This document shows, one piece after another, positions 52,333 to 53,616 of a DNA stretch of 64,000 nt; position 1 is the first letter of the stretch, and every line of letters begins with the position of its first letter. This stretch comes from Pyrobaculum neutrophilum V24Sta. GTDB lineage: Archaea; Thermoproteota; Thermoprotei; Thermoproteales; Thermoproteaceae. Position numbers and translations under genes: made by a program. The stretch spans positions 620,001 through 684,000 of the forward strand of contig NC_010525.1 of assembly GCF_000019805.1 (NCBI RefSeq). Reading direction: 5' to 3'. A model generated the notes under the pieces. That model did no database searches, was not told the origin of the DNA, and saw nothing but the letters and a program-made list of their open reading frames with translations.

Positions 52333-52542
52333 GTGGTCCCGATCAACGCCGTGTGGACTTCTAGGAGGAGGACGCCCGACGGCTACTACGTCGTGGTCCT
52401 CGGCCTGTATGCCCAGGAGGTTTTGAGGGTTGTGGGGGCCGAGCGCGCCGGCAGGTTCTACATATACCGGACGAGGTCGTGGGCCGAGGTTCTGAGGATT
52501 GTGAGGAGGGCGGAGGCCTTGGGCCTAGACGTGAGGGCTTAG
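52333..52542 (+). CDS. Small hypothetical protein
   Basis: A 69-residue basic protein from GTG 52333 (MVPINAVWTSRRRTPDGYYVVVLGLYAQEVLRVVGAERAGRF). Strand pattern suggests a small beta-alpha-beta fold with a C-terminal helix. No family is recognised. It is divergent from the second atpI gene, and its end overlaps the convergent rnhA end by 4 bases. The promoter is weak, so it could be spurious. Confidence 0.45.
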   Translation: MVPINAVWTSRRRTPDGYYVVVLGLYAQEVLRVVGAERAGRFYIYRTRSWAEVLRIVRRAEALGLDVRA

Positions 52543-53102
52543 CGCCTCTTCAGCGCCCTCTCTATCAGCTTGGAGGCCTCCCTCTTTGATAGACAGTCGG
52601 CCTCTATGCCGAGTCTGCCCAGGAGCGCCCTCTGTCTCTCGGTGGCGAGCCACGCCGCGTATCTCCCTCTCAGCTCTGGGTGCGTCTTTAGGAAGTCGCA
52701 GTAGGCCTTCTTGGAGTAGTAGTCGGCTCTGGCGTTGCGCTCCCGCGGGACCCAGCCTATGGAGAACTTCGCGAAGCGCTGGGAGAGCTCCACTGCGCGT
52801 TTATACAACGGCTTGAGGTGCTCCGCCTTCACCTGATATACGCCGAGCATCTGCCTAACCACCAGCTGACTGTCTCCGTAGACGTTGACGCAGCTCTCGC
52901 CGGCGGCCAGAGCCCACTCGAGCCCCCGGATGAGGCCCATGTACTCGGCGTAGTTGTTGGTGCACCACCTCTCCCCGGCGCAGACCACCCCTCCCTCGCC
53001 GTGTATCTCCTCGCCGTTTTTAAATGCGGCGAAGCCGTAGCTACCCACGCCCCCCGGATTCACGGGCTCGCATGCGCCGTCGAAGAAAAGGTCAATGCAC
53101 AT
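52539..53102 (-). CDS. rnhA: Ribonuclease HI
   Basis: A 187-residue type 1 RNase H that cuts RNA in RNA-DNA hybrids. FFDGACEPVNPGG, NNYAEYMGLIRGLEWAL, VYGDSQLVVRQMLG and RNARADYYSKKA hold the D-E-D-D catalytic residues. A C-terminal extension of about 50 residues is not part of the core. The ATG starts on the last A of the CCA end of tRNA-Val (53102), and no TATA box lies within the tRNA at the right distance, so its mRNA must come from the tRNA transcript. Confidence 0.92.
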   Translation of the reverse strand: MCIDLFFDGACEPVNPGGVGSYGFAAFKNGEEIHGEGGVVCAGERWCTNNYAEYMGLIRGLEWALAAGESCVNVYGDSQLVVRQMLGVYQVKAEHLKPLYKRAVELSQRFAKFSIGWVPRERNARADYYSKKAYCDFLKTHPELRGRYAAWLATERQRALLGRLGIEADCLSKREASKLIERALKRR

Positions 53103-53194
53103 GGTGGGCCCGCCGGGATTTGAACCCGGGACCACCCGCGTTCCCAGGCGAGGAGCCGCGTGAGGCGGGCATCATACCGCTAGACTACGGGCCC
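53102..53194 (-). tRNA. tRNA-Val (CAC) with an 18-nt intron and encoded CCA
   Basis: Acceptor GGGCCCG / CGGGCCC, T arm CCGGG-TTCAAAT-CCCGG, anticodon arm CCCGC-CTCACGC-GCGGG. The intron CGGCTCCTCGCCTGGGAA sits at the canonical 37/38 site. It forms an exact bulge-helix-bulge: exon CUCA pairs with UGGG, bulges are CGC and AAC, and the inner stem is GGC/GCC. Discriminator A (53105) and CCA (53104-53102) are encoded. GTTTAAAAAC about 25-30 bases upstream is the promoter. Confidence 0.93.
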
Positions 53195-53235
53195 TGCACA
53201 TCATAAAGAACACGTTTTTAAACTTTCGCGGCGCG

Positions 53236-53616
53236 TTACTGGACGGGGGCTTGCACCTCTACCTCCACCTCGGGAGGGCTCTGCTTGGTGTCCACCTTGG
53301 TGTACACCTCCCTGATGGGGGTGCCGAGGGTCTTCCCCTCCTTTAGAGCCCAGAAGAGGAGGGTGGCGTATGCGTTGTCTACCTTCTCGGCGCTTCCCGT
53401 GAATTTGGTGGAGGCCACCTTAGACGCCGGCAGAACCTTATCGCCGTTGGGATCCGGCGTGAAGATCTCAAACACCAGCTCCTGCCCCTCCTTGCCGTGG
53501 AATATGAAGACGGCGTTTTGCTTTAGGTCTGCGAAGAGCGCCGCCCTGTTGGTAACCCTTTTCACAACGCTGAAGCCCCTCACCTCTTGCACATCCTTGA
53601 CCTCGATCTTGGCCAT
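53236..53616 (-). CDS. Conserved-looking hypothetical protein
   Basis: A 126-residue protein, beta-rich with a helix near residues 80-95 ([18 protein letters not shown]) and an acidic, Val/Glu/Pro-rich tail. N-terminal [38 protein letters not shown] has no family match that I know. It has its own TATA-like box in the 67-bp gap to the divergent nucS gene. The tRNA-Val promoter starts about 10 bases after its stop. Confidence 0.55.

Follow-up and report, generated by a model that had tools for sequence, protein, structure and literature searches.

An rnhA gene two bases behind tRNA-Val(CAC) in Pyrobaculum neutrophilum, probably expressed as the trailer of a dicistronic tRNA-mRNA unit

The window analysed here is a stretch of 64,000 nucleotides from the genome of Pyrobaculum neutrophilum V24Sta (a single contig of 1,769,823 bases, denoted G000 in the genome comparisons). 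On its minus strand, a tRNA-Val(CAC) gene is followed in the same direction by rnhA, and the two genes are separated by a spacer of two bases (Table 1). The minus-strand junction reads GGCCC (53110 to 53106), A (53105), C (53104), C (53103), A (53102), T (53101) and G (53100). A first-pass annotation of this DNA had placed the discriminator at A53105 and the letters CC at 53104-53103, and had assigned A53102 both to an apparent CCA and to the ATG; these coordinates are exact. The 126-aa gene upstream, which encodes a GyrI-like domain, adjoins tRNA-Val in several relatives as well and serves, together with the 69-aa convergent ORF downstream, as a synteny marker.

Table 1. Features at the tRNA-Val/rnhA junction, in positions of the window.
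Feature	Position	Strand	Remarks
126-aa GyrI-like domain gene, upstream neighbour	53236..53616	-	PF06445, E 6e-6
BRE/TATA promoter GAAAGTTTAAAAACG	53213..53227	-	-33 relative to tRNA start; 17.5 bits (predicted)
tRNA-Val(CAC), 72 nt plus 18-nt intron	53105..53194	-	Rfam RF00005; discriminator A = 53105
Spacer CC, two bases	53103..53104	-	Read as CC of CCA; TC in sister G004
Shared base A	53102	-	Base 3 of apparent CCA = base 1 of rnhA ATG
rnhA, ribonuclease HI, 187 aa	52539..53102	-	ATG 53102-53100; NF041175, PF00075/PF13456
69-aa convergent ORF, downstream of rnhA	52333..52542	+	Synteny marker, conserved in genus

The Rfam tRNA model gives a complete match to 53194-53105 at 57.1 bits (gathering score 29), and an intron of 18 nt sits beside the anticodon (position 37/38). 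ARAGORN labels 53105-53194 as tRNA-SeC(tca), a call that we rejected as an artefact of the anticodon-adjacent intron, the orthologue in G001 (72 nt, without an intron) being called tRNA-Val(CAC). This label on an intron-bearing tRNA-Val is a likely source of mis-annotation. No second CAC copy was found when the genome was searched with up to 3 mismatches. The MFE fold of the tRNA together with the rnhA start is a mixed, non-cloverleaf structure with a z of -1.4 and, as the model ignores the intron and tRNA modifications, was set aside. The position of the tRNA-Val(CAC) intron varies between close Pyrobaculum genomes, being adjacent to the anticodon in G000, G004, G003 and G009, in or near the T arm in G006 (L157) and G008 (L054), and absent in G001, G005 and G010. 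In G006 (L157, near 851, minus strand), a second sequence resembling tRNA-Val(CAC), but damaged, starts at the end of rnhA, with the TAG stop codon of rnhA falling inside its 5' part. In its T loop this damaged copy bears the same insertion as the tRNA-Val of G008, and the intact upstream copy in G006 has another intron.

RnhA scores 157.7 bits against the NCBIfam ribonuclease HI model NF041175 (cut-off 140), matches the archaeal RNase HI structures 2ehg and 3aly (E 1e-29), and carries the N-terminal FDGAC motif of the ribonuclease HI family. Read from the ATG at 53102, the N-terminus is MCIDLFF (predicted peptide (M)CIDLFFDGACEPVNPGGVGSYGFAAFK), and profile position 4 of NF041175 aligns to residue 5, which fits this start. 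Within rnhA there is no other in-frame start before codon 14, a GTG at 53063, and initiation there would remove the first catalytic aspartate. In the sister genome G004, RnhA is 93% identical, and 38 of the 52 differences over 561 bases of the gene fall at third positions. Given this pattern and a dN of about 0.03 against a dS of 0.37-0.50 (dN/dS about 0.06-0.09), rnhA is, by this measure of sequence change, under strong purifying selection and has been kept while fused to tRNA-Val. The assignment of ATG 53102-53100 as the rnhA start, also made in the first-pass annotation, is borne out because orthologues begin at the equivalent place, 3-5 residues ahead of the same FFDG motif, and because selection on the gene is strong; the profile alignment agrees. 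No rnhA match was obtained in 3 of the 11 Pyrobaculum genomes (G002, G005 and G007, one of which is a fragmented assembly), so the gene may be dispensable in the genus, and little or weak expression may be tolerated.

Promoters were scored using a matrix built on 39 other tRNA promoters of the same genome, which range from 10.2 to 23.8 bits and all lie at -32 to -36. As the matrix derives from tRNA promoters, the absolute scores of protein genes run low, and it is the contrast between genomes that counts. The predicted promoter of tRNA-Val scores 17.5 bits here and 20.5 bits in G004. For rnhA itself, the best score between -75 and -8 is -10.9 bits in both genomes, which is at random level (median -10.3 for random stretches) and upholds the earlier claim that no TATA-like box precedes the rnhA ATG. 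Unfused rnhA genes, in contrast, have a box near -30, with scores of 10.9 (G003 and G009), 10.6 (G008), 4.6 (G006) and 2.0 bits (G001). In addition, inspection of the sequence ahead of the rnhA ATG revealed no Shine-Dalgarno-like element. The BRE/TATA site GAAAGTTTAAAAACG is probably the sole promoter serving both tRNA-Val and rnhA. Because rnhA lacks its own promoter and a strong TATA/BRE element stands ahead of the tRNA, we infer with good support that the two genes are co-transcribed and that RNase Z releases the mRNA. To this extent the first-pass proposal that tRNA 3' processing would free the rnhA mRNA is supported, and the message would be near-leaderless, beginning CCAUG.

Within the genus, the fused layout with its 2-nt spacing occurs in G000 and G004 only; the junction in G004 reads GGGCCCA-TC-ATG, without CCA. 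Because the flanks are conserved (the 126-aa GyrI-like gene and the 69-aa convergent ORF), one and the same locus can be followed from genome to genome. In G003 and G009, a convergent gene of 1023 residues, which we take to be a member of the GH57 family by its WHLHQPP motif, stands behind tRNA-Val, and next comes rnhA in the direction of the tRNA and with its own promoter. The GH57-family gene is intact in G005, where rnhA is lost, and survives as a remnant of 21 residues between tRNA-Val and rnhA in G008, a state that the intergenic sequence of G006 resembles by eye. It is gone in G000 and G004, where two bases remain between tRNA-Val and rnhA, and is also absent in G001, where tRNA-Val has the opposite orientation, divergent to rnhA (L158, 1386 onward). 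The block of tRNA, GH57-family gene and rnhA in G003 and G009 is inverted relative to its flanks. Judged by the divergent tRNA-Val of G001 and this inverted block, the locus is one that has been rearranged repeatedly. The simplest reading is that a deletion took out the GH57-family gene together with the rnhA promoter, and the loss would have taken place in the ancestor of G000 and G004 if the direction of change is as we infer. The intermediates indicate how a gene that once had a promoter can become a tRNA trailer when the gene beside it is lost.

Comparison of the junction across the Thermoproteales, which the first-pass annotation had called for, gave a divided answer. The layout and the 2-nt spacing are kept in the sister, but the CCA is not, and the arrangement is limited to two close species. 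The letters CCA stand here and TCA in the sister, which is not the pattern of a CCA kept as a tRNA feature, and the bases 3' of the other tRNA-Val(CAC) orthologues are CCT, TTG, CTT or TCC, with CCA in G002 only. The apparent CCA probably arises where spacer and start codon happen to coincide in one base, and it lies outside the conserved design. What the two fused species share is discriminator, two nucleotides and ATG, the arrangement required if an mRNA released by a cut at the discriminator is to be translated without a leader. We also surveyed 45 genomes of the order with a canonical T-arm pattern, by which tRNAs with T-loop introns are missed. Among the 150 listed CCA+KK junctions, TG occurs 29 times, GT 45, GG 50 and TT 26 times, and among 36 junctions of tRNA, two nucleotides and start codon that were checked, a long frame (187 aa each) follows only in the rnhA pair, the next longest having 48 aa. 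We rejected the notion that the Thermoproteales widely use CCATG as a designed junction behind their tRNAs, because TG is not enriched over GT, GG and TT and because the other frames are this short; CC-ATG behind tRNAs is common in the order and looks like chance. At another locus (L104, minus strand), a tRNA CCA is followed by TCC and then by the ATG of a 304-aa ORF, a spacing at which the start codon would survive a cut after CCA. No Pfam family matches the first 60 residues of that ORF.

P. neutrophilum encodes a full-length RNase Z (P0002; 237-242 bits) and a CCA-adding enzyme (444.6 bits). In each of the 11 Pyrobaculum genomes RNase Z falls short of the NCBIfam cut-off (237 against 293), and the family is therefore no guide to where the Pyrobaculum enzyme cuts. 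Against TIGR02650, which represents the Thermotoga type with its cut after CCA, the enzyme scores 29.9 bits where the cut-off is 507. CCA is encoded in 27 of the 43 tRNA genes of this genome, and precursors that contain it must therefore be routine for RNase Z here. The RNase Zs of Methanococcus and Methanolobus place 70-90% of ends after CCA where it is encoded, and in vitro with cobalt both these enzymes and that of B. subtilis cut mainly after encoded CCA (PMC7479834). We found no report in the open-access literature on this locus or on a measured cleavage site of a Pyrobaculum RNase Z. The first-pass annotation had also asserted that each transcript must choose between a CCA-bearing tRNA and a translatable mRNA. 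As stated, this part of the proposal is not supported, because a cut after the discriminator, with CCA supplied by the encoded CCA-adding enzyme, would serve the tRNA and the start codon alike. A conflict would exist only if RNase Z here cuts after the encoded CCA as the methanogen enzymes do; most rnhA start codons would then be lost through the single base by which this junction differs from that of the sister.

We consider it probable that tRNA-Val(CAC) and rnhA form a dicistronic unit born of the deletion, from which the mRNA is freed by an RNase Z cut after the discriminator to be translated in leaderless fashion. One predicted promoter upstream of the tRNA, none for rnhA, and direct adjacency conserved in G000 and G004 are the marks of such a unit. 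Transcription would initiate at the tRNA-Val promoter, RNase Z would cut after A53105, and the tRNA half would receive its CCA from the CCA-adding enzyme. The trailer would be the rnhA mRNA, with a 5' monophosphate and a leader of two nucleotides (CCAUG here, UCAUG in the sister), and would enter translation by a leaderless-type route; a 2-nt leader, as predicted for a discriminator cut, would fall within the leaderless class, for which the limit is at most 5-8 nt. In P. aerophilum, mRNAs are as a rule leaderless (PMC7531240). In a Saccharolobus (crenarchaeal) system, a leaderless mRNA with a 5' monophosphate continues to assemble initiation complexes, with a toeprint intermediate between those of the triphosphate and hydroxyl forms (PMC11698992), so a 5'-monophosphate rnhA mRNA should be usable although not optimal. 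Archaea also offer precedents in which RNase Z is proposed to free the RNA behind a tRNA (PMC3491384, PMC7994747, PMC4247193). Several points count against this explanation. A cut after the encoded CCA, as in methanogens, would take the first base of the rnhA start codon, and the RNase Z here deals with CCA-bearing precursors as a matter of course while its family score gives no cleavage rule. The three genomes in which rnhA was not matched also suggest that the gene may need little expression.

Such a cut is central to a rival reading, unlikely in our view but with a real chance of being right, in which RNase Z normally cuts after the encoded CCA and rnhA is expressed only through the rarer discriminator cut. 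Each precursor would then give either a CCA-ended tRNA and a decapitated rnhA mRNA, or a translatable mRNA. The site preference of the methanogen and B. subtilis enzymes (PMC7479834) and the 27 tRNA genes with encoded CCA speak for this switch, as does the lack of any alternative rnhA start before codon 14, which is already past the first catalytic residue. Nevertheless, the TCATG of the sister offers no CCA, so that the switch would be novel to one species, and selection on rnhA speaks against losing its start codon. Furthermore, a discriminator cut with CCA addition would already supply both products, and the TIGR02650 score sets this RNase Z apart from the Thermotoga type. We regard as doubtful the more specific proposal that a single spacer change from TC to CC in this species made the encoded CCA and thereby turned the choice of RNase Z site into a post-transcriptional switch between a tRNA-Val end that is already complete and an RNase HI mRNA that can be translated.

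The remaining explanations dispense with the discriminator cut or with the start codon. A cryptic promoter within the tRNA gene might give a separate leaderless rnhA transcript, given that leaderless genes of the genus depend on an upstream TATA box, at a distance of about 30 nt, and that weak boxes, such as those of G001 and G006 (2.0-4.6 bits), can work. The best score in both fused species is at the random median, however, and the region is GC-rich tRNA constrained in sequence by tRNA function, which makes such a promoter distinctly improbable. Internal initiation on the uncut tRNA-mRNA transcript finds a parallel in T. kodakarensis, where a tRNA-Lys lies inside the 159-nt 5' UTR of TK0306 (PMC4247193), but here the ATG has no Shine-Dalgarno-like sequence and lies 3 nt from a GC-rich acceptor stem of 7 bp, and we think this route very unlikely. 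Finally, there is scarcely any chance that rnhA has been assigned the wrong start, with translation beginning at another codon and the overlap without meaning. In-frame GTGs do exist at 53135, in the T arm, and at codon 14, but use of the former would translate the T arm, which is missing from the orthologues, and use of the latter would forfeit the catalytic aspartate, while the orthologues use the equivalent of the annotated codon.

The dicistronic unit with a discriminator cut, which we prefer, resembles the archaeal tRNA-sRNA dicistrons (tRNA-Pro of T. tenax and tRNA-Arg-sR44 of T. kodakarensis), in which a promoterless RNA likewise stands directly behind a tRNA and RNase Z has been proposed to form the 5' end of the downstream RNA (PMC3491384, PMC7994747, PMC4247193). 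Here, in contrast, it is an mRNA that lies behind the tRNA, with its start codon directly at the predicted cut site. The T. kodakarensis tRNA-Lys/TK0306 pair is also a case of an archaeal tRNA and mRNA served by one promoter (PMC4247193). Whereas that tRNA sits within a long 5' UTR, merely two bases separate tRNA from ATG at the present locus, and processing would therefore set the 5' end of the rnhA mRNA. In the tRNA punctuation of animal mitochondria, excision of tRNAs frees mRNAs that have their start codons at or beside the cut. That arrangement, which is named in PMC5474008, differs from the present one, a single chromosomal archaeal locus with ordinary promoters elsewhere. Precursors that RNase Z cuts after an encoded CCA, as in Thermotoga maritima and Methanococcus maripaludis (PMC7479834), share the encoded CCA with the P. 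neutrophilum transcript, but such a cut here would destroy a start codon. The CCATG/TCATG pair of sister junctions offers natural substrates, one junction base apart, for the question of how a crenarchaeal RNase Z handles encoded CCA, and the locus would be a clean natural archaeal case in which tRNA 3' processing, and not transcription initiation, defines the 5' end of an mRNA. Compared with the nearest published cases, the new element suggested by the sequences is the placement of an mRNA start codon at a tRNA cut site.
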